Shown piece after piece: positions 3,486 to 62,140 of a stretch of DNA of 64,000 bases. Source of the DNA: Sabellastarte sp. h YS-2021. Taxonomy: Eukaryota; Annelida; Polychaeta; Sabellida; Sabellidae. Where the stretch lies: NCBI GenBank assembly GCA_964017235.1, contig OZ024936.1, positions 89,254,537 to 89,318,536 of the forward strand, read 5' to 3'. A program made the position numbers and the translations under genes. Positions within the stretch are counted from its first letter, which is position 1; each line of letters begins with the position of its first letter. The notes under the pieces are model-generated. The model was not told the DNA's origin. It saw nothing but the letters and a program-made list of their open reading frames with translations, and ran no database searches.

Positions 3486-4503
3486 CTTTCTGGTCTTGTT
3501 TCTGTCTTTCTCTGTGGTGTCGACAGCTGCAATGTCTCTAATGTCTGCAATTAAAATCTCTGATTTCTGGCATTATACATTTTAGAGTCTGTCAACAGAT
3601 AAAGTGCTATAAAAGTACTATTAGAATAACAATCTTTTGCGAAGATAATAATCACTTAAGGCCAGAAAAAACATGGTATAGGTGATTTTATATAATTTTA
3701 TTTTCTGTTAAGCAACACATTAAAATTTCAATGCATTTTATATATATATATCAAAGATGCAATCTTATTTACAAATGACTCCAAATAACATTTAACTGGG
3801 ATTGTCATAACTGTGTCATTCTTCTGATGATACAACGGACTCTCATTTATAGGTCAATACATAATTTTTAATCATTTTTTTAATCATTGAGAGAAATAAA
3901 AAGTAACATATCTAATATTTGCAGAAATATTATATGAATGATATCTGGCGCTATGATAAAGGGATATGATGCTATGATTTATGGGCAAAAATGGGATTGC
4001 AGAGGCACTCCCTTGGGCACCTTCAAGTATTACTGTGAATTAGAACATTGTATGATATGATATGCTTTCTTATTATATGATTTCTTAGGAGAAAATTCCA
4101 TTTGGGGCAGAATTTTGATACAACACTTCAAAATATATCTTGATATGTATTTTCGTGGTCCTCCGTAGCATGGTGTCTTTTGCCTGCAATTCAGGCTTGA
4201 TTTGACTACACAAATGGAAATGAATAGCTATAAAAGTTGTGGTCGATCATAAGTTTTTGTAACAACCATATTTGTGAAGCTGAATGGGTTATATTATTGA
4301 CAGATTAAATATGTATTACATTATGGCTTAAATAACAAAGTAAGTAACACAAGTGGATTTTGTAAGATTTCATCTGTTGATATATTTAATACAGCCAAAT
4401 GTGCAAATGAGTGAATATCATAGGTGTGCAAATGATCACATACAGTTATACATAAGTGGAAGGGAAACTCAAATAGCAGGTGGATATCGTTTGGTATTTT
4501 TTA
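3486..4503. other. Unassigned AT-rich sequence upstream of GT61 copy 1
   Basis: No coding or RNA feature seen. There is a short TA microsatellite near 3741-3752. This interval should hold the promoter and any 5' non-coding exon of the glycosyltransferase gene, but I cannot identify either. Confidence 0.35.
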
Positions 4504-4527
4504 ATGTATACAATCTTTTGCTGTAAG

Positions 4528-5775
4528 ATGAAGAAATTAAAATGTACCTTCTGGGTATTAGTTTCAATTGCATTATGTGTAATTAGTTCTGTGTATTTAT
4601 TGGAAAGTTATTTGAAAAGTTGTTGTACTAGCAGCATGACAACTAAAAATAAACCATATAGATATATCAGATATGAAAATGTTTACTTACCACCACACAA
4701 GAACTGTCAGAGTAGAGATTGTGGTTTGCCAGTACAATATATAGCTGAAGAACCGATAGTATGTAAACAATATCCAATCACAGCAAGCAGATATGACATG
4801 GTTATGCACTGGAACATTTGTTCAACAAACGTGACAAGATATTGCTCCAGTGTGGTTGATGTAGCAATTCTTCCAAGAAGAATTTTGTATCTCGGTAACA
4901 TTGGACACTTCACCTTTGATATATTGGGAAATATTATTGCATTAAAACATGCCATAGATAAAGATGGAATATCTGCTACTGGTGACCAAAGTCATGATAA
5001 TGTGGCCATAATCATACCACCTCTTGCACACCAGTCATCGATATTGAACTTTAAAAGTTTTTTCCAAGCTCTGGGGATTACAAACACTGTACAAATGGGA
5101 TTTACTGAAACCTCGCATTTGTGTTTCAAGGCAATTTACTTACCTGATCATGAAAAAAGTACTCCATTGACCAAAGATGATATCCATTTTTTTCAAATAT
5201 ATTTTAATGTCTCTGATAATAATTGCTATGGGGAAAAACAGTTTACAATACTTCAGAGGAATGGTGAAAGGTCATTTGAAAATATTAGCAGTCTTGTTCA
5301 TTTAGTTGAAGCCAATGGGTTTCCCAATGTGGTAGTAGTTTCCTTTGAAAATATGACCATTCGAGAACAAATACACATAGCATATTGCTCCAAGATTTTC
5401 ATGGGAGTTCAAGGTGCTGGTATGACTTGGTCTCACTTTTTACCAGCAGATGGAGTATTGATTGAAATCGGATTTGAGCTGTGGAAAAATGACCATTACA
5501 GCAACAAAATTAAATCTGCAGGGCGTCACGACATCAAAACCTTTAATGTGAACTGTTCAGGAATGATTTCACAGGCACTATGGCAAAGATATGCTAAAAA
5601 GCATAATATTAGTGGAGTACTAGATGGTGAAAAGCAACAGATAATCTTAGCACTGGATGCCAAAAATGAGGAATTAAGGTACGGGGAAACAATATGGAAG
5701 CATGCAAACTGTCTTTGCAAAGAAAAGCACTTGGAAAAGGTTCTTCAAAGTGTAAAGCATATCCTGTTTCAGTGA
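4528..5775 (+). CDS. GT61-family glycosyltransferase, copy 1 (subfamily I)
   Basis: A 415-residue single-exon frame for a type II Golgi/ER membrane protein. A short basic N terminus precedes a membrane anchor (about residues 8-27) and a lumenal catalytic domain. Family GT61 (DUF563; animal relatives are EOGT and POMGNT2) is indicated by LPRRI..LGNIGHFTFD (NIGH at 124-127), FMGVQGAGMTWSHF (MGVQGAG at 292-298) and IEIGFE (about 312-317). It ends with WKHANCLC, also found in the other three copies. Several N-glycosylation sequons fit a lumenal domain. The frame is open upstream with an ATG at 4504, but the start at 4528 aligns with the start of copy 2 and is preferred. The bases before it (TTTTGCTGTAAG) resemble a splice acceptor, so a non-coding first exon is possible. 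Donor sugar and acceptor are unknown. Confidence 0.88.
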   Translation: MKKLKCTFWVLVSIALCVISSVYLLESYLKSCCTSSMTTKNKPYRYIRYENVYLPPHKNCQSRDCGLPVQYIAEEPIVCKQYPITASRYDMVMHWNICSTNVTRYCSSVVDVAILPRRILYLGNIGHFTFDILGNIIALKHAIDKDGISATGDQSHDNVAIIIPPLAHQSSILNFKSFFQALGITNTVQMGFTETSHLCFKAIYLPDHEKSTPLTKDDIHFFQIYFNVSDNNCYGEKQFTILQRNGERSFENISSLVHLVEANGFPNVVVVSFENMTIREQIHIAYCSKIFMGVQGAGMTWSHFLPADGVLIEIGFELWKNDHYSNKIKSAGRHDIKTFNVNCSGMISQALWQRYAKKHNISGVLDGEKQQIILALDAKNEELRYGETIWKHANCLCKEKHLEKVLQSVKHILFQ

Positions 5776-7268: not shown

Positions 7269-7284
7269 ATATGTCTTGGCAGAT
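7269..7284 (+). repeat. Upstream 16-bp target site duplication of LINE-A
   Basis: ATATGTCTTGGCAGAT, repeated without mismatch at 12904-12919 directly after the poly-A tail. Confidence 0.97.
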
Positions 7285-7562
7285 GGGAGTTTAATTAGTG
7301 TCACTAGAGGCAAGACAAGCTTTTGTGTGATCTGCTGTATTTGAATTTTAATCTGGGATAAAGGATATCTATCTAATTAAAAATTATACTAGGATATACA
7401 TAAAATAACAGTGATCAAGTTACTGCTAAAATTTATGAATTAAAGTAAATCATAAGGACAGAAATATTGCTTTAAAAAAAACTTTTGCTTGTATAACATA
7501 TAAAATTTTGAATATCCAACAATCAAACATAATCAATTAGTGTCAGGTTTAAAACACACAGC

Positions 7563-8720
7563 ATGGAACTACCAAAAGTAGAACCAGCCTTTCTTAAGGC
7601 TAGTGATGTGCCAGACTTCAAAACCCTAAAGGAATACGAACTCTGTGAAGCGCTTAGTAAAGTGATAAATAGAGAAAATCTTCTTGGTGTTCAAAGGATT
7701 GGGATGCTATGGCGCATTTATCTAAAGAACACAGAATCAAGAGTTAAAATTCTAGCCAACAGTGTCCAACTTAGAAATGTCAGTGTGAATGTGTTTTCTA
7801 ATAACCCACTCAGAGCAAGGCTAGCTGAAGGGGAGACTGACCAAAATATAATCAAAGTCACAATTAAGGACTTTCCATTGTCAAAAGCAAATAGTGCTAT
7901 TGAAAGCTACCTAATTAACCAAGGGATTAAGCTCAAAACAAAACCTGAATATGCCAAGGCAAGGAATGAACTAAATGAACTTACAGAATGGTTAAATGGT
8001 GACAGAATTATATTTGTGGAAAAATTTGATGAACCATTGCCCAGAAAAACCTGGATTAGTGGAAGCTCTGTAAGGATATTCCATAGGGACCAGCCAAGCA
8101 ACACTAAAAGAGTCTGCTCCAACTGCCATCAAGAGGGGCACTTTAAACAACAGTGTACTAGTGGTCCCTGTTGTGTTGTGTGCAAAGGAAAAAATCATTC
8201 ACCAGGAGACAAGGAATGCCCAGGCACAGCAAAGAACCCCCATAAGAGTGTAACCACTTTTGCTGGTAAAAAAGATGTTCTCAGTAACTTTTACCCCTGT
8301 GATGTCAAGGTTTTTGGCTTCATACACAAGTCATCAGAGCATGCTTTTTGTTATGCTCATGCCACCCAGACTGGAAAAGACAAGGTTGCTGAGAGGATAT
8401 TGCAAGCTGGATCTGCATTCCAGGCAAAGATTGAAGCCTCTGCATTACCATACAGCCCAGCATGGGAAGAAAAGAAGGAAGATGTGATGCAGCAGATTCT
8501 CCTAGCCAAGGCAAAGTGCTGTCAAGAATTTCATGATAAACTGATGAACACTCGAGGAATATTTGCAGAATCTGTACCAAATGATCTTTTTTGGTCAACT
8601 GGACTGAGTAAAGAAGTGACAATGGTTGTGAAGAAAAGCTCATGGCCTGGCAAAAACAGAATGGGGAAGCTGCTCAGTACAGTGAAGGAAGCCATTTTTG
8701 ACAGCAACAGTGATGGATAA
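7563..8720 (+). CDS. LINE-A ORF1: gag-like protein with two zinc knuckles and C-terminal NADAR domain
   Basis: 385 residues from a clear ATG, with no stop or frame change. Residues about 40-178 look like the two-part RRM-like nucleic-acid-binding region of Tx1-type gag proteins (VTIKDFPLSKAN; GDRIIFVEKFDEPLPR). Two zinc knuckles follow: C185-C188-H193-C198 and C204-C207-H212-C219. Residues about 231-380 form a NADAR (YbiA-like) domain: DVLSNFYPC at 238-246, SSEHAF at 257-262, a Trp at 301, NDLFW at 340-344 and the PGKNRMGKLL signature at 362-371. The Lys that usually follows the SEH motif (…KA) is His here. NADAR enzymes act on ADP-ribose or NAD-derived compounds. ORF1 proteins bind the LINE RNA. 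The stop overlaps the ORF2 start (ATGGATAA, 8713-8720), so ORF2 may be translated by reinitiation. The exact NADAR substrate is unknown. Confidence 0.9.
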   Translation: MELPKVEPAFLKASDVPDFKTLKEYELCEALSKVINRENLLGVQRIGMLWRIYLKNTESRVKILANSVQLRNVSVNVFSNNPLRARLAEGETDQNIIKVTIKDFPLSKANSAIESYLINQGIKLKTKPEYAKARNELNELTEWLNGDRIIFVEKFDEPLPRKTWISGSSVRIFHRDQPSNTKRVCSNCHQEGHFKQQCTSGPCCVVCKGKNHSPGDKECPGTAKNPHKSVTTFAGKKDVLSNFYPCDVKVFGFIHKSSEHAFCYAHATQTGKDKVAERILQAGSAFQAKIEASALPYSPAWEEKKEDVMQQILLAKAKCCQEFHDKLMNTRGIFAESVPNDLFWSTGLSKEVTMVVKKSSWPGKNRMGKLLSTVKEAIFDSNSDG

Positions 8721-11700
8721 TTTATCAATATTTAGCTACAATTGTCGTGGCTTAAATGACAAAGACAAAAGAACTAAACTTTTCCTTTGGATTAATGACC
8801 AGAATTATGATATTGTGTTATTACAAGAAACTTTTTTGATAAATGAAACTGAAGCATATGTGAAAAGCAGCTGGAAAGGTATTTCTTTTTTTGCAAACAG
8901 TGATTCTAAACATAGTAGAGGTGTAGCAATACTCCTTAAAGAAAATTTTGATTGTAAAGTTGTAAATAGTTATTCCAGTAAAGACGGAAGAATTTTACTG
9001 ATAAATATTGAGATTAATGAAAATGTTTTCACTATTGTCTCAGTGTATGCTCCAAATACAGTAAAAGAGCGTGTCGTATTCTTTGACAAATTAAAACAAT
9101 GGATTATACAATTTTCAGAAAATAAAGATAACCTAATAATTACAGGTGATTTCAACTGTAACGTAATTGAAGATAATACTAATAACTCAAATGTACATAC
9201 AATCAAAACAGATAACAGTGTAGAAAACCTCAAAATGCTACTTGAGAGCTGTAAATTAAGAAATGCGTGGCAAATTTGTAACCCATGTAAATCTTGTTTA
9301 ACATATTATGATAAAAGAACAAAAAAATACAGTACTTTAGACTATATCTTTGTTTCTTGTGATCTCAAATGGACAGTAAAAAATATTCAGATATCAAAAC
9401 CAGTAAAAAATCAAGGTGTAATTGATCATTTTGGCCTAAAAGCAACATTTCAATTAAATACAATGCAAAGAGGTCCAGGAATTTGGAAATTGAATAACAG
9501 TATTCTACATCAACAAAAATATATTGATTTAGTAAAAAAACAATTAATAATACATTACAAAATAACACAAATATAAAATCATGGCAGATAATTTGGGAAA
9601 TGATTAAAATCAATATAAAAGAAGCATCTATAGAATATTGTGTAAATGAGTCTATAACAAAGACAAAGATACAGCAAGAGATTCAAAAACAGCTAGATTC
9701 AATCAATGAAAGTATCATTGACCTTGAAGCATGCAGCAATCTGCCAGATACATCTCTAGTACAGCTACAAAGATATAAAGAACATAAATCTGAACTTGAA
9801 AGCAAACAGCAAAGATTTTACAATGAAAAAGCAAAAGGATATGCTGTAAGAGCAAGAGTGAAATGGGTGAGAGAAGGTGACATACCATCAAAATATTTCT
9901 TATCTTTAGAAAAAGCAAGGCAGGCTAACAATGTTATTAGAAACGTCAGAGTTGGAGAAACTAATTACACTGGAACTCAAGCTATATCTGAACAAATTAT
10001 GAAATTTTACTCAAAACTTTATGAGAAATCTGATATACCAATCAGTTTGATAAATAAATATTTGAATGATGTAAATTTACCAAACTATTTGACGACAGCT
10101 GATTGTAAAATGTGTGATTTAGATATTACTACTGAAGAAATACGAAAAACAGTTAACAGATTGAAACAAAATAAGTCACCAGGCATGGATGGCCTAACTA
10201 ACGAATTTTATCAAACATTCTGGGATCAATTGGAAGCTACATATATGAATATGATAAAAGAATCTTTTGAAAAGAAAATTCTTCCAGATAGTACCAAAAA
10301 GGCTCTTCTAACCTTACTATATAAACAAGGCAATAATTCAATTTTGACAAATTATAGGCCTTTGAGTATAACCAATTGTGATTACAAGATACTGACTTTT
10401 GTATTAGCAAACAGATTACAAAAAGTTATTGAGAAACTTATTTCAAAGGATCAAAGTGGTTATATTAAAAAGAGATATATAGGCAACAGTACTAGACTGA
10501 TTAATGATATAATAGAATACTGTGAGAATTGTAACCAACCAGGAGCAGTTATATGCCTTGATTTTCAAAAAGCATTCGATACTCTTGATTGGAATTTTAT
10601 GTTTGGCTGTTTAAAAAAATTTGGCTTTGGCAAAAACTTTATAAAATGGATAAATATAATTTATAAAGAACCAACCTTTTGTATAAAAAATAATGGCTGG
10701 ATCTCCAGTGAATTAAATATGCAAAGAGGGGTACGTCAAGGATGTGCCATTTCAGCCTTACTTTTTATAATTGCAGTCGAAATCTTATCAGTCAAAATAA
10801 AGCAATCTGAAAACATTGATGGAATTAAAGTTTTTGATGAAGTATCACATCTTATTCAATATGCAGATGATACAACTTTAACTTTAGCAGATGAGCAATC
10901 TATAACAAATGCCATGAAGCTTTTAAATGAATACTCAAGAATATCGGGTCTAAATTTAAATCTTCACAAATGTGCAGAGATCTGGCTTGGCTCCTTCAAA
11001 AACAATCCAGATATATACTCTGGGATAAGATTCACCAATCATCCTATTAAATGCCTCGGAATTTACATAGGAACAGACTATAAGGCATGCGAAGATTTAA
11101 ATTGGGGTAAAAAGTTAAAAGAGATTGAGGATTTAACTCTTCAATGGAGAAAGCGAAAGCTCACTTTACAAGGTAAAATTACTGTGATTAATAATCTCCT
11201 TATTCCTAAAATGATTTATCCAATGACAGTCCTATATACGCCTCCAGAGGTTACAAAAAGAATTGAAAACATTATTTACGCATTTTTATGGGAAAAATGT
11301 CATAGGGTGAAAAAAACAATTGTAACTCAGCAGAATATAAATGGAGGTTTAAACATGATAGACATACAGTCAAAATTGTATGCACTGAAAGCAACATGGA
11401 TTCCAAAATTTCTAAACAATAGAAATAGAATAGCCAACATTGTTAACATGTATCTAACTTCTATAAATTTGAATATGTCACTAATCTTGAGAACAACATT
11501 TCGTAAAAGTGATTCCTTTGATATTATTAAAAAGATACCAATGTTCTATCAGCAAATCTTTATCTCCCTTAATGAATGTAAGACTATAAAACCAATAAAC
11601 AATCTATCTAATTTTGAATTTTTGACACAACCTTTATGGGGAAACGAATATTTCAAATTTAAAAATAAACATTTATACTACAGAAATTGGATTGAGAGTA

Positions 11701-12557
11701 ATATAATTTTTATCAAGGATCTATTTGACAAAAATGGTTTCTTTATTAGCGAAGAAAACCTATTAATTAAATTGAAAAACAAACAAAATTGGATGACAGA
11801 ATATTTAACACTTAAAAAAATAATCAATAAACTAGCAAAACACAAATTTAATACCAAACAGGGCCAATTCATACAAACGTCTGCCTGTATGAAAACTAAT
11901 TTCTGGGCAAAAGGAAATCTAATTCATCCAGAAAATATTAAAACAAAAGAAATTTATAATATTCTACTAAGTAAAAAATATGAAAAACCCTATGTTGAAA
12001 ACATGTGGGAAAAACGACTTACAAACAAAGTTAATAATATTAACTGGGCAGAGGTGTATACCCAAAATTTTAAGTGTTTGAAATATAGTAAATTTACAGA
12101 GTTTAAGTTTAAAATTATACATAATGTTCTTCCATGTGGAAAGCAATTATGCCGTTGGAATAACAATTATAGTGGATTATGTGTTTATTGTGGTGAAGTG
12201 GAAAATATAACTCACCTTCTTTATGAGTGTTCTAGAATTAAAAATATTTGGCGTGTAGTCAGCAATTGTATGAAAACTAATATATTGTTAAAACATATTA
12301 TAATTGGTTTTCAATTTAACAATGAAAACTATGTTTTGCAAAATAAAATTATTTGTATTGTAATAATATCCTATGCTATTTATAGTGTATGGTGTAAGTG
12401 CAATATAAACAATAAAAATTATAAAAATACTGATGTCAAAAGTAACATTAAGCAACAATTATCTTTTTATCTAGAGGTTTTTAAAAGCATCTTTGATAAT
12501 CCAAGAAAGGAACACTTAAAATGTCTAGGAGAATGTATACTCTATCACTTGATTTGA
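8713..12557 (+). pseudogene. LINE-A ORF2: AP endonuclease, reverse transcriptase, zinc finger; one frame change
   Basis: This encodes the polyprotein for target-primed reverse transcription. The endonuclease (8713-about 9480) shows SYNCRGLN, LLQETF, VYAPN, GDFNCN, LDYIFVS and IDHFGLK. The reverse transcriptase follows with NKSPGMDGLTNEFY, NYRPLSI, DFQKAFDTLDW (near 10560), QRGVRQGCAISALLF and QYADDTT (near 10858). The C terminus has CVYCGEVENITHLLYEC, a zinc-binding segment typical of such LINEs. The endonuclease frame stops at 9574-9576, and the rest is open in another frame from before 9600 to 12557. The two readings join smoothly at the A-run 9534-9540 if one base has been lost there. All catalytic residues are present, so this is a nearly functional copy. 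Confidence 0.9.
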
Positions 12558-12856
12558 TCATTAATTTATTCAATGTGTATACATAATATGTGCTTGAATG
12601 TTTTAAAATATATAAAATGCATATATGTGTGGCCAAAAATATATAGATATTTTTCAGTTGATTTCTTATAAAGCATGCACACAAACCAGAGCATAAAAAA
12701 TGAAAATGATTTTAGTGGATGGTATCTGTATTTGTACTAATCTCTCATTGTTTTCAATGTCACATCATACTGTGTATGATATGTTTGTTAGCAGCCTGAT
12801 GGTGGGTTTGCTACCCTAGCCCACCCAGATGAAGCAGTTATTGTGAAAAAAGGGTA

Positions 12857-12872
12857 AATAAAATTATTTTGT

Positions 12873-12903
<31 letters not shown>
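12857..12903 (+). terminator. LINE-A polyadenylation signal and poly-A tail
   Basis: AATAAA at 12857-12862 is followed 13 bases later by an uninterrupted A-run from 12876, ending at the target duplication. This is the 3' end left by reverse transcription of a polyadenylated RNA. Confidence 0.9.
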
Positions 12904-12907
<4 letters not shown>

Positions 12908-12919
12908 GTCTTGGCAGAT
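12904..12919 (+). repeat. Downstream 16-bp target site duplication of LINE-A
   Basis: ATATGTCTTGGCAGAT, identical to 7269-7284. Confidence 0.97.
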
Positions 12920-39457: not shown

Positions 39458-40672
39458 ATGAGTGTTCAAAGTGGAGTTGTGTGTAGCACACCAACAGTAA
39501 AAAAGTTTGCTGCTGAAATGAGTTTTTCCCCAGAAATAGCAAACTTGGATTCATTATCAGAGCTGCTCGATAAAAAGCTACAGCCCCTGTATGACAAAGT
39601 TGACAACGTTACAGAGGCATCTAAAGATGTGACTGAACTGCAAAATGAAATGAAATTATTGAAAGTTGAAAATAGATAAAAGTTGAAATAAAGTTAACAA
39701 ACTGGAAAATTATAGCTGAAGAAATAGCATCAGACTTTATAATATCAAAGAAAGGAAGAATGAGAACTTTGATGAATTTCTTGTCCATATGATGAACAAA
39801 TATCTCAGTTCATCTGATAGACAGTTTACAGACAGCAGCTTTGAATATGTACATTGTGTGGGGAAAATCCGAAAGAGATAAAACATGTGTAGTCATTGCT
39901 CGATTCAATAGCTTCAAAGAAAAACAGCACCTGTTAAAAAATAAAGCAACAAATTTGGCAGTGTGAGGGGATAGGCATCAGTAATGACTTTTCTCCAACA
40001 GTTGAAGAAAAGCAAAAGCAGCTGTTCCCCATCTGCAAAGCCATCAGAATTCAAAAGAAAGAAGAAACTGGAAGTGTCAGCAATAGTGTCTACCTCAAAA
40101 TGGATAAATTAATGCTGGATGGGAAATTATACAAAAGAGAAGATCTTCATTTGTTACCTGAAAAATACAAACTTAAATCTCTGTTCACTCCCAGCTGCAA
40201 GGGAATCACAGCTTTTTTCACAAGGAACAGTCTGCTATCCAATGACTGCACATGTCAATTTAAGCTAGAGGGTGAAAGGTACAACTGCATGGAGCAGTAT
40301 CTCATGAGTGCAAAAGCAGCATTTTTCAATGATCAACAGAGTGTTGTCAATATTTGCAAAGCCCAGGACCCAGTTCAACAGAAGCATCTTGGTGGAAAGA
40401 TAATGAACTTTAGACAAGATACATGGAGTGCTGAGGTTGAGAAGATCCTATTCAAAGGCTTGTGTGCAAAGTTTGAACAAAACCCCAGTCTGGCAAAGTT
40501 CTTGATCAACACAAAAGAGAGCGTTATTGCAGAAGCCAACCCATATGACAGTGTGTTCGGTGTTGGATTCAGTCTAGGACACCCAGACCTATGGCAAAAA
40601 GACAGATGGCAGGGTTCCAACATTCAAGGGAATGCTCTGGAAAAAGTATGCAGTATGTTACAAGGCAAATAA
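39458..40672 (+). pseudogene. LINE-C ORF1: coiled-coil, RRM-like, CTD and C-terminal NADAR domain, broken
   Basis: The ATG at 39458 opens a frame with a coiled-coil (LDSLSELLDKKLQPLYDKVD, about 39545-39605) that stops at 39679. In other frames follow KLENYS*RNSIRLYNIKE (about 39700-39760), the mark of L1-type RRM domains, and then SNDFSPTVEEKQKQLFPICK (about 39980-40040). From 40100 the frame is open to 40672. After the ORF1 CTD ending (LMLDGKLYKREDL) it encodes a NADAR domain (about 40202-40669): LLSND, YNCMEQYLMSAKA with the usual Lys, DTWSAEVEKILFKGLCAKFE, FLINTKESVIAE, and SNIQGNALEKV in the place of the GKNxLG box. At least two stops and two frame changes lie upstream, while the NADAR part is intact. 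Confidence 0.85.
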
Positions 40673-41810
40673 GTGAGACATTAGCATTTACATATCTCTC
40701 TTTGCTAATACAGTTGACTTGAAACAAACTTAAACATTATTTAATGAAAGAAATTAGAATTTTCATAATTATGTAATAACCACATTCTTTTTAAAACAAT
40801 AGTTGTCTTAAATATGCGTTTGTAATCTAGTGTTTTGAATAAATCAACAGAGATATTGTTTGCATATTTACATCTAATAATGAAAATAGAATGTGTACGT
40901 TTTTGTTTAAATTCTGTGTTATTATCTCAGCCTAGCTTTTTTATAGTTAAGATATAAGTTTCGTATTTGCTTGAAAAGGATGTGCTGTTGTTTTAAATTG
41001 AGATGTGCTGTTATCTAAGTTGAGTTTTCATTGTCAAGCAATAATTTTTGTATTGGCTAAAAGAGACGTGTCATAACTGCTTCTTGAATAGTTCACAGTG
41101 ATCTACATAAGTAATGAGTTGATATTTGTAACAAAACTTTTAAAATTACATCAAAATTCATGTTGGATAACAAATACAAATGTAAATAATACCTGTGCAA
41201 GTACCTAATCAGACAGTTCATAGAAATTTACATCTGTAACAGATGAATTGGATACTTGGAATAGCACTTAAATTTCACCGAAAGTTTATACTAGATGAAT
41301 GTAAATAGTACCTGTCAAAAGAAATATTACTTAAAAAGATGATGTAACAACAACTTTTAAGTTAGCATAATAATTAGGTGAGATAAAGCTAATATATACC
41401 TATAAATCGGGGGCTAATCCCATGTAGTTCTTTTCTCCTAATGCTCTTACTGATTGCTCTTCTAGTGATCACCTTTCATAAAAGGGCAACCTTAATTCAT
41501 GGTACTCACTGTGATCTTGTATATAGTTTATTTGTTTGGATTTCATCACATTATAGCAATTTATAGTATTAAAAATCAAATGCTATGCCTTTTGTTATCT
41601 CAGTACATCAACTACTGTGCATGTTATTGTATAAAACATGAGTTCAGTGAATTAATATATGTGCTTCTTGTAAAGAGTCTGTTGCATAAAATCATAGAAA
41701 GCATGGTCATTTGTATTATACCCTTAATGAAATCCACAAAGTTTCTCCGCATGCTAAGAATTAATGTCTTCAATACACAACTAGTTGTCTTTAGTTGTCT
41801 TTTTTTGGCC
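40673..41810 (+). other. Long spacer between ORF1 and ORF2 of LINE-C
   Basis: About 1.1 kb without a recognisable domain, much longer than the 8-base overlap in LINE-A. The frame that runs into ORF2 is open from 41499, but the part before 41811 reads as hydrophobic, non-conserved sequence. It could be a secondary insertion or a true inter-ORF region. Confidence 0.45.
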
Positions 41811-44800
41811 ATGAACAGCTATGATATAAGAATAAGTAGTTTTAATACAAATGGATTGGGAAGTAAAGTTAAAAGAGAAGCAATTTCAAAATGATTAAAG
41901 TCTATTCATCAGAGTGTCATCTTTTTACAAGAGACTCACTCAAACCCTGATTTAGAAAATGTATGGAAGCATGATTTTGATAATAACAATTTATTTTTTT
42001 CTCATGGCTTGTCGTCTGCAAGAGGTGTCTGTACCATACTACCTAATAACTGTGAGTTTGAAATTAAAGAAAAAATTTTGGATGATAAGGGCAGATTCCC
42101 ACTAATAAATTTGATCTTAAATGACACAGAACTAGTTCTTGTAAATATTTATGCTCCAACAAAGGGTAGGAAACAAGAACTGCTATCTTTTTTGTCTTAC
42201 ATTCACAATGTCTTAATAAATTTATGGGTAAATCAATCATTTTAGGAGGTGACTTTAACACCTATTTAAATCCTTCTCTAGATAAAGCAGGAGGAACAAA
42301 AGAAGAAACACCTGAAACTGCAAAGTTCTTGTTAAATATCTGTGATGAATTTAGCCTCATTGATATATATAGGCTACAGAACCCAGAGGGTAGAAGATAT
42401 ACATGGCGTAATAAAGGAAGATCAAGTTTAGTACAATCTCGACTGAATTTGTTCATTGTCTCAGAACTACTGCAATATTTAAATATAAAATTTAAAGTTT
42501 TGCCTGGACTTCTCTCTGATCATAGCTTGATACAAATTGATTTTGACACAGAAAAACATTGGTCACGGGGCAAAGGTTTCTGGAAATTTAATGTGGAACT
42601 CCTAAAAGACATAGACTACATAAATCAAATTAATTTTCAACTGGACAAGTTCAATGAAACTGAAGAAACATTTGAGAACAAGTCTCTGCTATGGGACTTT
42701 ATTAAGTGTAAACTTAGAGGAATAACAATATCCCATGCTACCCACAAAGCTAGAGAGAAAAAAAGAAGGAAAAAGATTTACAGGATAAACTATTGCAATT
42801 AGAACTCAACCTCGGTATGACTCCTTCTCATGATTCTCTTAAAGCTTATAGTGAGGTAAAGCATGAACTGGTGAGTATTCACCTTGAGAGAGCTAAAGGT
42901 TCTGTTGTACGTTGTAGAACTGAAGGCATTGTAAATAATGAAAAAAACACTAAATATTTTTTAAACCTGGAATAAAAACTTTAACATTAAGTGTATAAAA
43001 TGCCTTAATGTAGAAAATAAATTGATTACCAGTGAGGCAGAAATTCTTAATAAGGAAAAAATCTATCAAAAACTGTACAGTGAAATGAATAAAGTTCCTG
43101 GAACAAATGAACTTGAAAGTGAGTTTTTACAGAATGATAAAATTCCAAAGTTGTCTGAAGAAGACAAACAACTTTGTGATGCTCCTATAACCATGTAAGA
43201 ATGTAGCGCTGCACTTTTAGAACTGAAAAACAATAAATCACCTGGCTGTGATGGATTTCCCATTGAATTTTATAAATTCTTTTGGAATAAAATTCAAAAT
43301 TTTGTTTACAATAGCTACTTTTGGTCAGGTCAAAATAAAATGCTTTCTACAGATCAAAAAAGAGGAATATTAACATTAGTTCCTAAAAAAGGGAAGGACC
43401 CATGTAAACTGAAGAATTGGGGACCCATCAGTTTGCTTAATGTAGACTACAAAATTCTTACAAAAGTTTTAGCAATGAGACTACAAAAAATTTTGAACAA
43501 AATTATCAGTCCCGATCAGGTAGGTTATATAAAAGGTCGTTTCATCGGTGTTAATATCAGAACAACAGCAGACATTCTGACTTACTGTCAGCTTAATACA
43601 AAAAAAAGGCCTTAATCTCACTAATAGATTTTGAAAAAGCCTTTGACTCCATAAACTGGTCTTTCTTGCTGAAAAGTTTACAAACATTTAACTTTGGAAA
43701 TTCATTTATATCATGGGTGAAAACACTGTATACAGATATTGAGAGTTGCGTTACTAATAACGGAAACTCCTCAATTTTCTTTAAATTAGAAAGAGGTATA
43801 AGACAAGGCTGTTGTCTGAGTGCCCTACTTTTCATTATTGTAGCAGAATTGCTAGCAATAAGTATAAAAACAAATAAATTAATACACAGAGTAAAAATAC
43901 AGGAGGATGAATTTAAAATATGCCAACTTGCAGATGACACCACTCTATTTCTTAGGGTTACATGCTCATTAAAAATTGTTTTAAATTTATTGGATGAATT
44001 TTCAGTTATTTCAGGCCTTAAAATAAATAAAGACAAGACAGAAGTTTTTTCCGTAAATAATGATTCAAACTTAGGTAACTCGTTAGGTATTTCATGGAGG
44101 AAAAATACTTTTAAAGCTTTCGGGGTATGGTTTAGTTTAGATGAAAATGAAATGATCAAATTGAATTTAGAGAATAAGCTTGACGAAATTAAAAAAACCA
44201 TAAACTGTTGGTCGTGTAGAAACTTGACACTATTCGGAAAGGTTGTTATTTTGAAGACATTGGTTCTTAGTAAAATTGTGAATATATGTAGCGTCATTTA
44301 TATTCAAGACAATTTTATAAAAGAAGTAGATGCATTGTTTTTCTAATTTCTATGGAGAAAAGGTAAAGACCCAAAGTTAAAAAAGAAATAACCATTAATG
44401 ATAAAGTAAGAGGTGGGATAAAAATGGTAGATATAAGAAAAATGTTGATTTCAATAAAGGCATTATGGGTAAAGAGACTTGTAACAGATAATGTTGACAA
44501 TCCATACAAAGAGAAATGGAAAAACTTAGCCTTATTGATTGGAGGCATCTCTGACAAGAACATTTTACTACATAAACTTAGTAAGGATCACTTTCCAAAA
44601 AGTCAGTCCAAGTTTTATGACAGTGTCTTGTTGTCCTGGTATAGTTTTTTTCGGCCTACCCAAGCACAGTACAAGAAATTATGAATGAGAAAATAGCTTA
44701 CAATAAATATATCACCATTGGGGCAATGCCGCTGCTACCTAATTTTTAATGTGATTAAAGAAACAGGAATCACTAAATTAAGTCAACTTTATCAAGGGTC

Positions 44801-53221: not shown

Positions 53222-55900
53222 TTGTTGAAAAAACATTCGCGAGGTAGCACTTTTTGTCCAACCTAATTTATTTAATCTTTTCAAACTCTCTTAAAATATT
53301 ACTAATATCTGATACTTTTTAGGTTATAAGAGCGGACCAGCAAACAAACAAACAAGCAATATTGGAAGGAGTGAGGGTAATTATACTAAAAGGTTAATTA
53401 TTATATTTTTACCATATGATACACATTGTGGTAATTGTATGACATCTCAAGTATGCTTTAAACATGTCTGTCACAAATAACTCTTGACTTTGAGTAAAAC
53501 AGTTCTCATCATATTACTGTCACATGTGCAATTGGCGTGCTTCCAGATACTTCTGCCGTAAGATCTTCCAGGGTTGTAATATTGCTCTAAATATTTGATC
53601 CTCTCTTTAAGAGATTTGTCCAACGGTCCCCGGAGCCCGTAATAATCTGCATATTGAAGCCACAAGTTGTCTGAGATAAAAGGCGTACAATTGAGATTAA
53701 ATACTTTGATGTCCTTCCGGCCTATCAGTGACAATTTCTTGGTGTAGTAATCATTTCTCCAGAGTTCAAAACCGACTTCGATAAGAATGCTGCTTTTTGG
53801 TAGGAAATGAGACCAGACCATTCCTGCACCTTGAACACCCATGAATACCTTGGAACAGTAAGCTATCTGCATTTGTTCTTGTATACTCATGCTTTCAAAC
53901 TGAACCACTGTGGCATTGGGAAACCCACCGGACTTTATCACCTCCAACAAGACACCGATGTTTCTGAAGATTCTCTCATCCGATTGTCTTTGCAATAAGG
54001 TAAACTGATTTGTCAGTTGACACATATCTGCAGTAATGTTAAAATAGTCATAAAAAACATTAAATGTTTTACTTTCCAATGAAACCGGCTCTATATCGTG
54101 TGGGAAATAAGCTTCCCTAAGGCAGAGGGGTTTCTCCAGGGAACTGAGGAATGCAACATCTGTTATGTTTAGCGCCTTAAAAAAGCCTTCATATTTCTGC
54201 ACTTTTTCCTGGTTATAAAATGGTGGCACAACAAGCGTGACTGAGCTGTGATGTACTTGGTCATCCACCTTCTTGCTGATGCATTTCATAAGCGAGTCTA
54301 TACGTCCAAGAATTTCGAAAATCAGATGTCCAATATTTTCAGCATACCTCAACCTCCTGGGCAAGATGCCAATCGAACGCGAACTATCATTATCTTTACA
54401 GTTATACAATCTTTGCCTTGCCGCAGTATTCCAGGAGGTAGTGATGTCAAACCTGCTCAGTTTGAGAGAGATGTTCTCACTCCTTGCAGTAGTATTGCTT
54501 TTGTAAAATACAGGAATCAAACACATACCCCACCTACAGTCTGTCTCTGAAAATGGTGGAACCTCCACATCATGGTAGACTACCTGGTGTCCACAGTCAG
54601 TGGAAATGCCACTGTGAAATATATGCCTGACATATTCCCAGTTATAACCAGTAAATGGGGTGTTTTTCAGTACAAACATCAAAGTCATGGATCCAAGCAA
54701 AGTTAATATCATAAAGTAAACTTTCTTGAATGACAATTTCATTTTTGGTCATCATCATCACCATGGTCTCACATCAGCTTGGCATTTTATCCATAAGTCA
54801 ATTTATTTATTGAATATTTAATTCTCGTTTTTATTTTGTGTGGATATTATTCATTATCACCATCCTATTGCTGGTTATACCTATAGTGTGTAATCTGTTA
54901 ATGAACTCCTGTGAAATGTTAACGATTAAATGATACTTATCTTTTCTGTAAAAATACAATAGACAATGGGTATATTTGTCAATTGTGTATTTGTTGATAA
55001 CCCTTTGCTCCATAAAACAGTTCAATTATTGTACCAAGTAACAAACTGGCATGGAAACCGTTAAATACACAATACTGAACACCTATAAGGTTTTGCAAAG
55101 TACTATTGTTATGATGGAGTCACATGTTTCAATGGGTCAAGCGCAAAAGGTACCAGTTGCTTTGAAGTTGCAACAGAAAAAGAAAAAGTTTTTATTTACA
55201 AATTTATTTAACAATCAAAATAATGATTACAGGCCAACGTATGTATAATTTTCTCCATTTTTCTTCATTTTAGTAAGTTGTGAACACCAGATGATGTGAT
55301 CACCAGACTATCTCATTGTCATTATCAGATGAGCAACAGATAACAGAGTGATCACTAGAGTATCTGCTTATCATGGCATGACAAGCCATTGCTATGGCAT
55401 AATAAGTTGTCATAATCACAAGATCTTCTGGCAATCGCTGTACAAAGAAAGCCTTCCTTACATCCCATAGTACGGGTTCATTACATGCTTGTTACAGAAA
55501 AGAAAGGATAACTGGCAAGTGACACACAGGTTTACTGTAGTATTTTCGACCTCACAGACAGCACATCATGCAATTAATATGACATGCAAATTAATTTCTG
55601 TGTGGTTCTGTTATGTTCTGAAAGATTCACTTGCTTTGTAAGAAGGATGCACTTGCAAATATCTACTTACCCCACAAATGGTCATGACCTTATATTTGAC
55701 CAAAATCTTAGGGTCTGCATGTGTGATAACTGAATGTTATGTAAGAGCAGTGTTGTTAGTCATGATTACATGAAAATATGTTACGCTCACAAGGTCTCCT
55801 AGTGTTCACCATACAATGATCCATCTTCAAGACTTGGTACATTGTCAAGTAAAAATCACAGGGTCCTCGCAGTGGCTCTGTAGCGAACAGATCAAATATA
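53222..55900. repeat. Segmental duplication, unit 1 (with GT61 copy 3)
   Basis: Runs parallel to 60621-63845 in the same orientation. Shared outside the gene: ATTGTTGAAAAAACATTCGC (53221), TTATAAGAGCGGACCAGCAA, then upstream of the gene GGTCATCATCATCACCATGG, AGTTGCAACAGAAAA (about 55166-55180) and AACTGGCAAGTGACACACAG (about 55510). Identity is high around the gene and falls off to the right; the outer edge near 55900 is approximate. Confidence 0.8.
53471..54742 (-). CDS. GT61-family glycosyltransferase, copy 3 (subfamily II)
   Basis: 423 residues from an ATG at 54742 with no intron. Type II topology: residues about 9-25 form the membrane anchor (VYFMILTLLGSMTLMFV). The lumenal domain carries ILPRRLRYAENIGHLIFE (NIGH at 136-139), FMGVQGAGMVWSHFLP (MGVQGAG at 301-307), IEVGFELW, and the C-terminal WKHANCTC tail shared with copies 1 and 2. 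Many sequons (NTT, NIS, NIT) fit a secretory enzyme. Expected role: transfer of a sugar from a nucleotide sugar to a glycoprotein or glycan in ER/Golgi, as for GT61 members EOGT and POMGNT2. The exact reaction cannot be read. A possible AATAAA lies at 53272-53267 on the minus strand. It is the better preserved of the duplicated pair. Confidence 0.9.
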   Translation of the reverse strand: MKLSFKKVYFMILTLLGSMTLMFVLKNTPFTGYNWEYVRHIFHSGISTDCGHQVVYHDVEVPPFSETDCRWGMCLIPVFYKSNTTARSENISLKLSRFDITTSWNTAARQRLYNCKDNDSSRSIGILPRRLRYAENIGHLIFEILGRIDSLMKCISKKVDDQVHHSSVTLVVPPFYNQEKVQKYEGFFKALNITDVAFLSSLEKPLCLREAYFPHDIEPVSLESKTFNVFYDYFNITADMCQLTNQFTLLQRQSDERIFRNIGVLLEVIKSGGFPNATVVQFESMSIQEQMQIAYCSKVFMGVQGAGMVWSHFLPKSSILIEVGFELWRNDYYTKKLSLIGRKDIKVFNLNCTPFISDNLWLQYADYYGLRGPLDKSLKERIKYLEQYYNPGRSYGRSIWKHANCTCDSNMMRTVLLKVKSYL

Positions 55901-56547: not shown

Positions 56548-59500
56548 GTACAACCTGATAACAGATATTGAACAGCTAGAGAACACAGGGTCTATAAACT
56601 CACAACTACTTCTTGATAAAAAGGCCACATTGGAAACCATTAGAGAAGAACGAATTCAAGGCCAGATGATCCGATCCAGAATTCAACGGCTACATGAAGG
56701 GGAAAAACCCTCAAAATATTTCTTTAACCTTGAAAAAAGAAACTACTTAGAAAAAACTGTTAAAAGGGTTTAAGACAAGGATGGTCAATTTATAACTGAA
56801 CAGAAGAACATTTTAGAATATATAAAAAATTTCTATGAAAATTTATTTAGCAATAAGGATGATACACTAGAAAATGTCAGTCTAAAAGAAATATTAAAGA
56901 ATGCTAATCTCCATAAAGTGTCTGATAATAAACTGGGTGATCCAATTTCTACATTGGAGTTAAGTGAAGTATTAAAAAGCATTACAAGTGAATTTCTAAA
57001 AGTTTTTTGGAAAAAATTAAAATTCTTTATTACCCGGGCAATTAATGCCTGCTTTAAAAAAGGAAAGCTGTCAACTCTTCGGCAAGGAATAATAACTTGT
57101 ATCCCAAAAGGAAATAAAGAGCGGTATCACCTGAAAAATTGGAGGCCGATCTCACTCCTGTGCACTACATACAAGTTAGCATCTGGTGTAATAGCTAGCA
57201 GAATGAAAACTGTTCTTGACAAAATTATTTCTGTTACTCAAAGAGGTTTCATAGCGGGTAGACAAATTAGTGACTGTACAAGACTAGTTTATGATGTTAT
57301 GCAAGCTGCTGAAACAAATAACCTATCAGGACTTCTTCTTTTAATTGACTTTCAAAAGGCTTTTGATTCAATTTCTTGGAATTTCCTCTATAAGACCCTT
57401 GATCTATTTGGTTTCTGCCCAAAGTTCATTGACTGGATTAAGCTATTTAACAATGATATTGAAATGTATGTCTTACAAAGTGGGTATCTTTCTAAAAAAA
57501 TTAAAGTTGGGAGAGGCTGCCGGCAAGGTGATCCTATAGCTCCTTATTTATTCCTTACAGTAGCAGCAATTCTGGCACTCCTTATTAAATTGAATCACGA
57601 TATTGTGGGTCTAAAACTTTTTTTGCATTGCTATAAGATAACACAGTTTGCAGACGACACAACATTGATCTTGGATGGCTCACAACAATCACTACAGGCT
57701 GCTTTAAACACACTTGAAATATTTGGTAATTTTTCAGGACTAAAAATGAATAAAGAAAAAACCAAGGTCATTTGGATAGGCAGGAAAAAACACTCCAAAG
57801 ATAAATTGCAAATTTCTGAAAAACTTGATTGGGGCAAAACAGATTTTAAATTGCTTGGGATAAATTTCAACGTTGATTTAAATAAAATGCCGGTAATAAA
57901 TTTAAATCCCATCTTGGAAAAAATTCTCAAAGATATATTTAATTGGCAATCAAGACAGCTTACACCAATGGGCAAAATTACTGTTCTGAAGACTATGGTA
58001 ATATCAAAATTTATCCACATATTCTCAGTACTACCAATATCAGAATCATTTATTCATAAGTTACACACTATATTTTTCAAATTCCTCTGGAATAACAAAC
58101 CAGATAAAGTTAAAAGAGAAACTGTTTGTTGTGACTATTTAATGGGTGGTTTAAAAATGATTAATGCCCATGCATTTATTAAATCTTTAAAGGCCAGTTG
58201 GGTGAGAAGAATATTCTGTGGCCCAGAATGTCAATGGTTAACTCTGTTCAATGAAATGTACACATATACTGGGAAATTGTATTTCGAGAGCATGTGGGGA
58301 AATGTTCTTATCAAAAAGACGTCTAATGCTTTCTGGGTTGAGGTTATTGAAAACTGGCAGATTTTTTGCAGAAAACAACAACCAAAAAGCAACATGGACA
58401 TAATGAACACTAGTATTTGGTATAATCCAAAAATATCAAGAGAACCTCTATATTTCTCACATTGGTTTAACGCAGGAGTGTTACTATTAGGGGATATTTT
58501 AAATGACAAAGGTAAAATTGAATCATTCGAAACACTTCAGAAAAGATATAGCATTAATTGTAATATACTAGATTATTACAGGATAAAACTCTCTGTTCAA
58601 AACTTTGTTAAAAAGTTCAGTTTTGAAGAATCCTTTAATTACTCTAGACCATCTTGCCCTTTTCATCTAAGGATTCTCTTTAAATCAAGTAAAGGAGTCA
58701 AAGATTTTTATGAAATCTTCCTCAGTAATCCTGGTAGTAGGTCCGTAGCACAAATAAAATGGCAATCACTTGTTGATGCAAACATCTCAAATTTTTGGTC
58801 AGTAATTTACAAAATCTGCTTCAGATCTATATATAACAACAGTTATGTCTGGTTTCAATATAAAACAATAAATAATATTTTAGGTACAAATTATTATCTG
58901 CAAAAAGTTAAAATATCGGAGTCTTCTCAATGCCAGTTATGTAATGCTAACCCAGAAACCGTTACCCATCTGTTTTCAGAATGTAGAGAAACTCTTGAAT
59001 TATGGACCAATGTAGAATATTGGATATTAACTAGAACTGGCACAAGCATCAAATTTGATACAACAATGAAAATACTTGGCTATCATAAATATGATTCAAA
59101 CTTTTGGCCTGTCAACTTTATACTTATTACAGTCAGATACCATGTTTTTAAGTGCTCAAAACAAAAAAAAATTTGAATATATTTCAAGTGCAAAAATTAA
59201 TAAAAAAACAATATGATGAACAGAAACTTCTGAGTGAATTAGATGGTCGCAGTGAGATATTTGAAAGAAGATGGCACAATTGGAAAAATTTGTTTACTAA
59301 TATTTGATTATGTGTAATCCAAAACAATGAAGAATTGTTGGTAACAAATATTGAAAACAATTAGTAAAGAGTGTGTGATATGTGTGATGTTCTGTTTAAA
59401 GATCCTAATTATACTTGGTTTCTATTTATCTGTTACATTTACCATGTTCCTGTAATTAAAAAGTATCTTACAGATATTAATGTACCTATAAAAATAAAAA
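56548..59500 (+). mobile_element. LINE-D: 5'-truncated L1/Tx1-type LINE with 10-bp target duplication
   Basis: The element begins within ORF2, upstream of the reverse transcriptase, and ends after an A-rich 3' end (AAAAATAAAA). It is flanked by AAGTTACAAG at 56538-56547 and 59501-59510. The start within the coding region is the usual result of incomplete reverse transcription. It lies between the two duplicated GT61 units and is in the same family as the minus-strand remnant at 24540-26960. Confidence 0.88.
56550..59307 (+). pseudogene. LINE-D ORF2: reverse transcriptase and C-terminal zinc segment
   Basis: After YNLITDIEQLENTG comes the linker with GEKPSKYFFNLEKR, and a TAA near 56771. The frame is open from before 56918 to 59176: NWRPISLLCTTYKLA, LLIDFQKAFDSISW (about 57340-57380), GRGCRQGDPIAPYLF, TQFADDTTLILDG (about 57640-57675), SGLKMNKEKTKVIWIG, and CQLCNANPETVTHLFSEC (about 58930-58985). 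Near 56980 LKSI joins directly to TSEFLKVFW. The normal NNKSPGxDGF segment is gone without a frame change. At the A-run near 59162-59172 the frame shifts, and the original end is at 59307. No endonuclease. Confidence 0.88.
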
Positions 59501-60868: not shown

Positions 60869-62140
60869 TCACAAATAACTCTTGACTTTGAGTAAAACAG
60901 TTCCCATCATATTACTGTCGCACGTGCAATTGGCGTGCTTCCAGATACTTCTTCCATAAGATCTTCCAGGGTTGTAATATTGCTCTAAATATATGATCCT
61001 CTCTTTAAGAGATTTGTCCAACGGTCCTTGGATCCCGTAATAATCTGCATATTGAAGCCACAAGTTGTCTGAGATAAAAGGCGTACAATTGAGATGAAAT
61101 ACTTTGATCTCCTTCCGGCCTATCAGTGACAATTTCTTGGTGTAGTAGTTGTTTCTCCAGAGTTCAAAACCGACTTCGATCAGAATGCTGTTTTTTGGCA
61201 GGAAATGAGACCAGACCATTCCTGCACCTTGAAAAGCCATGAATACCTTGGAACAGTAAGCTATCTGCATTTGTTCTTGTATGCTCATGTTTTCAAACTG
61301 AACCACTGTGGCATCGGGAAACCCACTGGATTTTATCATCTCCAACAAGATGCCAATGTTTCTGAAGATTCTCTCATCCGATTGTCTTTGCAATAAGGTA
61401 AACTGATTTGTCAGTTGACACATATCTGCAGTAATGTTAAAATAGTCATAAAAAACATCAAATGTTTTACTTTCCAATGAAACTGGCTCTATATCGTGTG
61501 GGAAATAAGCTTCCCTGAGGCAGAGCGGTTTGTCTAGGGAACTGAGGAATGCAACATCTGTTATGTTTAGGGCCTTAAAAAAACCTTCATATTTCTGCAC
61601 TTTTTCATGGTTATAAAATGGTGGCACAACAAGAGTGACTGAACTGTGATGTACTTGGTTATCCACCTTCTGGTTGATGCACTTCATAAGTGAGTCTATA
61701 CGTCCAAGAATTTCGAAAATCAGATGGTCAATATTTTCAGCATACCTCAACCTCCTGGGCATGATGCCAATCGAACGCGAACTATCATCATCTTTACAGT
61801 TATACAGTGTTTGCCGTGGCATAATATTCCAGGAGGTAGTAAGGTCAAACCTGCTCAGTTTGAGAGAGATGTTCCCACTCCTTGCAGTAGTATTGCTTTT
61901 GTAAAATACAGGAATCAAACACATACCCCACCTACAGTCTGTCTCTGAAAATGGCGGGACCTCCACATCATGGTAGACTGCCTGGTGTCCACAGTCAGTG
62001 GAAATGCCACTGTGAAATATATGGCTGACATATTCCCAGTTATAACCAGTAAATGGGGTGTTTTTCAGTACATATATCAACGTCATGGATCCAAGCAAAG
62101 TTAATATGATAAAGTAAACTTTCTTGAATGACAATTTCAT
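60869..62140 (-). CDS. GT61-family glycosyltransferase, copy 4 (subfamily II), altered conserved motifs
   Basis: 423 residues, the same length as copy 3 and very similar throughout, from an ATG at 62140. The anchor (residues about 9-25) and the WKHANCTC tail are kept. Two changes fall in the most conserved family motifs: NIGH is NIDH (Gly138 to Asp) and MGVQGAG is MAFQGAG (Gly302 to Ala, Val303 to Phe). Another change is LPRR to MPRR. There is no stop or frame change, so it is a full-length protein. With these changes it may be inactive, altered, or beginning to decay. The other three copies keep the motifs. Expected location is the ER/Golgi lumen. Confidence 0.86.
   Translation of the reverse strand: MKLSFKKVYFIILTLLGSMTLIYVLKNTPFTGYNWEYVSHIFHSGISTDCGHQAVYHDVEVPPFSETDCRWGMCLIPVFYKSNTTARSGNISLKLSRFDLTTSWNIMPRQTLYNCKDDDSSRSIGIMPRRLRYAENIDHLIFEILGRIDSLMKCINQKVDNQVHHSSVTLVVPPFYNHEKVQKYEGFFKALNITDVAFLSSLDKPLCLREAYFPHDIEPVSLESKTFDVFYDYFNITADMCQLTNQFTLLQRQSDERIFRNIGILLEMIKSSGFPDATVVQFENMSIQEQMQIAYCSKVFMAFQGAGMVWSHFLPKNSILIEVGFELWRNNYYTKKLSLIGRKEIKVFHLNCTPFISDNLWLQYADYYGIQGPLDKSLKERIIYLEQYYNPGRSYGRSIWKHANCTCDSNMMGTVLLKVKSYL

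Follow-up and report, generated by a model that had tools for sequence, protein, structure and literature searches.

A NADAR domain in the ORF1 protein of Sabellastarte LINE retrotransposons and its possible action on ADP-ribosylated element RNA or cDNA

Does a LINE retrotransposon make use of a NADAR domain carried at the end of its ORF1 protein and, if so, on what would this domain act? The question is raised by the window analyzed here, i.e., a 64,000-nt stretch of contig OZ024936.1 from the annelid Sabellastarte sp., in which an ORF1 of 385 residues (7563..8720, + strand) comprises an N-terminal half, zinc knuckles, and a NADAR domain (residues 236–378; 8268..8696, +), the last of which was reportedly named in a 2012 paper. 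The original prediction proposed, from motifs alone, that NADAR is fused to the C terminus of a LINE ORF1, and the Pfam search bears this out: PF08719 matched the window ORF1 with 72.2 bits (cutoff, 35.1) over profile positions 9 to 162 of 163. The structure predicted for the window domain, a confident model, has the expected YbiA/NADAR fold. Profile, fold, and structure match together rule out a false domain call.

Upstream of the domain lie two CCHC zinc knuckles (residues 185–198 and 204–219; 8115..8219, +), whose cysteines and histidines are unchanged across the 17 aligned rows. The zinc-knuckle Pfam match in the window ORF1 falls below the cutoff, and a knuckle profile matches retroviral nucleocapsid (E = 3e-4). 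The earlier observation of a gag-like, zinc-knuckle ORF1 that runs into NADAR is confirmed. The single-sequence model of the N-terminal half (pLDDT, 34.8) was unusable, and a profile search with the window-type ORF1 gave no RRM structure among its matches. LINE ORF1s have been divided into types that include type I (RRM plus CCHC), type II (CC-RRM-CTD), and type IV (esterase), according to the accessible text of PMC4120745; by its knuckles the window ORF1 resembles type I, with the RRM part a candidate only.

The element around this ORF1 is a full-length LINE of 5.6 kb that extends from the 5′ UTR through the poly-A (7285..12903, +; poly-A tail, 12876..12903, +) and is flanked at both ends by a target-site duplication (left copy, 7269..7284, +; right copy, 12904..12919, +, the first A of which is possibly part of the poly-A). 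Comparison with four other copies showed that their homology starts at bases 3–13 of the window element. ORF2 consists of an endonuclease part (8704..9573, +; PF03372, E = 1e-15) and a reverse transcriptase (RT) part with a C-terminal zinc region (9600..12557, +; RVT_1, E = 1.2e-33; zf-RVT), the latter being out of frame relative to the former in the window copy. The element therefore has what defines a LINE, i.e., endonuclease and RT in ORF2, a target duplication, a poly-A tail, and dispersed copies. Among solved structures, its RT is nearest to human LINE-1 ORF2p (217 bits, versus 60 for R2); it is thus nearer to L1 than to R2-type elements. Both parts of ORF2, endonuclease and RT, are of L1 type, and the element is placed in the L1 superfamily. 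Tx1 ORF1s carry CCHC knuckles, and this trait, together with a report on oyster Tx1 elements discussed below, probably places the window LINE in the Tx1 clade.

Two sister copies, L068 and L067, are 99.7% (over 2.9 kb) and 99.4% (over 2.4 kb) identical to the window from the 5′ end and lack its ORF2 frame break, which points to recent movement of the family. L067 is an interrupted copy, in which element homology breaks off at base 2435 and does not resume over the following 3.4 kb of contig (L116). L068 was compared as far as its fetched stretch extends, and the sequence compared thus covers no intact copy in full. Of the claim that the element is nearly intact and its fusion was probably functional recently, the target duplication, open ORF1, and recent movement hold; the ORF2 frame is broken in the window copy. 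The ATG of the endonuclease part (8704, +) sits within the final ORF1 codons, at an estimated start 14 nt upstream of the ORF1 stop codon. The same spacing was estimated for the window family (4 loci), L071–L074, and the first piece of L075, and at other loci with a readable endonuclease the estimated start lies ~80 to 400 nt after the ORF1 stop, with the exceptions of L090 (1100 nt), the second piece of L079 (584 nt), and the broken L070 (56 and 99 nt).

A protein search of the genome with the ORF1 yielded at least 107 scored matches (the best 107 of 2730 candidates), 45 of which span residues ≤6 to ≥375 stop-free, the others being truncated or containing stops. We examined 50 loci (L066–L115) and excluded six with stops, leaving 44 unbroken ORF1s. 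NADAR scored above the cutoff in all nine relatives chosen for a profile scan, and open relatives extend down to ~40% identity. The ORF1-NADAR fusion has thus diversified into many subfamilies in the host genome, and the many open relatives rule out a degenerate one-off. The one candidate inspected for an ORF1 variant devoid of NADAR, L121 with its short frame, turned out to be frameshifted, with NADAR in another frame.

Is the active site preserved? The window domain has Glu259 (8337..8339, +) in place of the ribose-binding E43 (42 E and 2 D among the 44 relatives), Trp301 (8463..8465, +) in place of W89 (W in 44/44), Glu336 (8568..8570, +) in place of the catalytic E125 (43 E, 1 gap), and Trp344 (8592..8594, +) in place of W133 (43 W, 1 gap). 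Glu336, matched by Glu in 43/43 relatives with a letter there, fits the rule for the YbiA subfamily of NADAR, which has Glu, neither Asp nor His, at this position (PMC11543638, accessible text). As originally predicted, the usual Lys after the SEH motif is His in the window (His266, CAT; 8358..8360, +), and most copies of the window subfamily share this state. The Lys at this place is essential in the E. coli C7 NADAR (K95) and corresponds to K50 of the Phytophthora protein, and Arg partly replaces it in vitro in a studied NADAR (PMC11543638). A competent guanine-ADP-ribose hydrolase would accordingly be expected to have Lys or Arg here, and the window has neither; the accessible portions of the NADAR biochemistry in PMC11543638 and PMC11833690 contain no mention of His at this place. 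The pyrophosphate-binding R79 is not conserved in the LINE clade (S 10, K 7, N 1, and A 1 among 19 representatives, in a region of uncertain alignment), and R93 is Lys throughout the clade. Compared with the NADAR of Phytophthora nicotianae (PDB 8bau), a guanine ADP-ribosylhydrolase, the window domain thus differs by K50 to His, R93 to Lys, and loss of R79 and, unlike 8bau, is fused to a LINE ORF1.

Among the 44 unbroken ORF1s, the K50 position is K in 35, H in 4, Q in 3, N in 1, and R in 1. Within the window subfamily, codon 266 encodes His in seven of the eight readable copies (window, L067, L068, L069, L117, L119, which has a deletion just upstream of the codon, and L120) and Asn in the decayed L070; the sequence of L118 stops within the codon and is hence outside these eight. 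The relatives displayed have the Lys codons AAG/AAA, two base changes away from His, and L120 shares the His state at no more than 89% DNA identity. Fixation in the source lineage, rather than a late accident of a single copy, is therefore the probable origin of His266. A separate subfamily (L112–L114) has Gln at the essential-Lys position in all three copies examined.

Is the domain maintained at all, or is it a functionless passenger, i.e., a gene fragment caught by the element? Instead of a dN/dS near 1 in the domain, which the original prediction regarded as decisive against it, we found medians of 0.28 (24 pairs) at dS < 0.3 and 0.18 (79 pairs) at dS ≥ 1.5, close to those of the N-terminal part (0.25, 27 pairs, and 0.19, 217 pairs, respectively). 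The dS band of 0.8–1.5 gave 0.10 for NADAR (only 3 pairs) and 0.30 for the N-terminal part (14 pairs), dS being undefined by saturation for most of the 946 pairs. Trees built from an identical set of 18 rows were of similar total length (NADAR, 5.78; N-terminal half, 6.16). By these sequence measures, the NADAR domain is constrained much as the remainder of ORF1 is. A passenger would find some encouragement in the window's terminal branch, whose length is 0.415 for NADAR and 0.257 for the N-terminal half, yet this ratio is exceeded on 2 of the other 17 terminal branches. The four youngest copies differ at a few NADAR positions, always by nonsynonymous changes, which likewise favors a passenger. 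With a domain that is open in relatives down to ~40% identity and constrained like its surroundings, the passenger explanation is strongly disfavoured and highly improbable. In relative-rate counts, the window NADAR exceeds its sister in unique changes in 20 of 24 comparisons (not independent). Overall, the domain is maintained, and its constraint may be relaxed in the window subfamily.

The fusion is not confined to one ORF1 scaffold. A Pfam NADAR search of the genome gave 150 scored matches of 2705 candidates, all above the cutoff; among these 150, 48 occupy stop-free frames of 400 aa or more, and the 38 listed first sit within short frames (167–179 aa). We fetched eleven long-frame loci (L010–L020) and one solo copy (L009), and an endonuclease/RT frame was present in 10 of the 11, the fetched stretch of L014 having none. 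Upstream of NADAR, the profile of seven aligned ORF1s from this second group hits human L1 ORF1p (E = 9e-9), and this part can be aligned by eye in six of the seven; the upstream part of L016 was discounted since its frame starts with unrelated sequence. Weak, sub-cutoff matches hint at a coiled coil. The group resembles ORF1 type II (PMC4120745, as far as its accessible text describes that type). The equivalents of E43, K50, W89, E125, D130, and W133 are invariant in all seven. The 461-aa open frame of L016 appears to be chimeric, its upstream portion resembling, by eye, the frame of a neighboring element in L014.

At L010, L015, and L017, ORF2 lies 0.7–0.8 kb downstream and scores 38–60 bits to the window and L018 types, and the window RT scores 349–458 bits with long L1-like ORF2s. 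An L1-like ORF2 lies 1.5–4.3 kb downstream on the same strand at L011–L013, L016, L018, and L019, where chance neighbors are not excluded in single cases. The ORF1 of L011 is 45% identical to that of L010, yet it lies near an L1-like ORF2; if the two L011 frames form one element, ORF1 would, tentatively, have been exchanged between LINE lineages, as is known for other ORF1 types (PMC4120745). Similar ORF1-NADAR modules are thus seen beside two distant ORF2 types (L010, L015, and L017 versus L011, whose linkage is putative). A quick tree of 66 of the 96 distinct NADAR domains, with 30 rows left out as near-identical, decayed, or short, separates the two ORF1 types. An AU test, in which the constrained tree had the better score, did not reject a single LINE NADAR clade (p = 0.63); LINEs may have acquired NADAR once or twice.

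How new is such a fusion? A 2025 Ectocarpus paper (PMC12477816) reports YbiA/NADAR in ORF1 of several Tx1 LINE families of the oyster Crassostrea gigas, i.e., in the same protein as in the window, a likeness drawn from description only, and a LINE ORF1-NADAR fusion is therefore not new in kind. In the accessible text, the oyster report consists of one sentence, without anatomy, selection, or active-site analysis; beyond it, we describe two ORF1 scaffolds, measured constraint, and a Lys-to-His subfamily. The same paper describes NADAR in Pol of Ectocarpus Gypsy elements, which like the window element are retrotransposons with a NADAR of their own but are LTR elements. It was the sole earlier report of NADAR in retrotransposons found in our search, whose scope lay outside bioRxiv and most subscription journals. 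The ORF1 type scheme, in the accessible part of PMC4120745, mentions no NADAR type; its ORF1s are modular with added enzyme-like domains, as are the NADAR ORF1s. Animal RNA viruses, RNA-based replicators like the LINE, carry NADAR in polyproteins and are proposed to counter host ADP-ribosylation with it (PMC9503650); the viral domain is embedded with an RNA polymerase, in a different kind of replicator.

As for function, the physiological role of animal NADARs is described as unclear (PMC11125620). NADARs act on guanine in DNA (PMC11543638) and are the only tested hydrolases that remove ADP-ribose from guanosine in RNA (PMC11833690). We propose that ORF1p would coat the element RNA, that the NADAR domain would be tethered to the resulting particle, and that it would remove ADP-ribose from guanine bases of element RNA or first-strand cDNA, which may relieve a block by host ADP-ribosyltransferases. 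In the window subfamily, Lys-to-His would probably lower or alter hydrolysis, and the domain would perhaps only bind ADP-ribose. A contact of His with the pyrophosphate is conceivable, given that one studied NADAR partly tolerates Arg for Lys in vitro. We infer this reading, in both its forms, with a probability of about 0.4. For the Lys-bearing families, removal from element RNA/cDNA is the leading, though tentative, function. The original idea that the element processes ADP-ribose itself is thus plausible for most related families, in which the catalytic set is kept, and uncertain as regards hydrolysis for the window subfamily.

Constraint would look alike if the domain merely bound RNA, multimerized, or read ADP-ribose. 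In the main rival, catalysis is dispensable and NADAR is a folded module for binding or assembly, whether an ADP-ribose reader or a tail for RNA binding or multimerization: the domain stays open in the His and Gln subfamilies without the essential Lys, the window domain lacking Lys is still confidently modeled, and in the clade R79 is not preserved and Lys stands at R93. Against this, 35 of 44 relatives and all seven aligned second-group ORF1s retain Lys, and the near-invariance of E43, W89, E125, and W133 is the pattern expected of an active pocket. We regard this rival as rather unlikely overall, although such a role is likelier for the window His subfamily than for the others. NADAR could also act on small molecules, blunting host NAD-based signaling, given that YbiA is an N-glycosidase of riboflavin intermediates (PMC11543638) and that soluble ADP-ribose derivatives are proposed targets of viral NADARs (PMC9503650). 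That NADAR is joined to two distinct RNA-binding-like ORF1 scaffolds speaks instead for a substrate in the RNA particle and makes a small-molecule target quite improbable.

Returning to guanine ADP-ribose on the element's nucleic acid, bacterial NADARs, including E. coli C7, have no or negligible activity on PARP10-made uracil-ADP-ribose (PMC13036486), and the host enzyme countered should therefore modify guanine. The host genome does contain segments of PARP catalytic domains, with 42 matches at exon level from 64 candidates; a Pfam search for Scabin-like guanine-base transferases gave 0 matches in the host, with the control likewise silent. A bolder and improbable extension is that two LINE scaffolds (zinc-knuckle and L1-type), with distant ORF2 lineages, gained NADAR because hosts restrict retroelements by ADP-ribosylating RNA/cDNA bases, with the His subfamily representing changed specificity or a binding-only reader. 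If true, animals would have an undescribed base-ADP-ribosylation defense, its counter-defense written in transposons. Fusion to an RNA-binding-like retrotransposon protein points to the element's own RNA/cDNA, which is testable, and the natural Lys, Gln, and His active sites in one clade provide a ready-made mutant series. NADAR genes counted in animal genomes may, we infer, be transposon ORF1s.

The window holds further elements. A second, decayed NADAR-bearing LINE (40100–44346, +) has a NADAR frame (40100–40672) with Lys kept and W133 changed to Phe, downstream of which lie disrupted endonuclease/RT-like fragments. An open frame of 752 aa (56918–59176, +) encodes a third L1-type RT, and a profile scan of the window frames gave no NADAR frame nearby. 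Three long single-frame genes (4480–5775, +; 53471–54742, −; 60869–62140, −), two of them near-identical 423-aa copies, apparently form one family, presumably glycosyltransferase-like. Elsewhere in the genome, a solo NADAR ORF of ~161 aa with Lys kept occurs on many contigs (L001–L009), in a dispersed repeat that also contains ~165-bp units arrayed in tandem; an additional 490-aa ORF in L009 has no Pfam match. This repeat is possibly another mobile element with NADAR, and its NADAR shares 47% identity with a NADAR from a viral contig of 353 kb.
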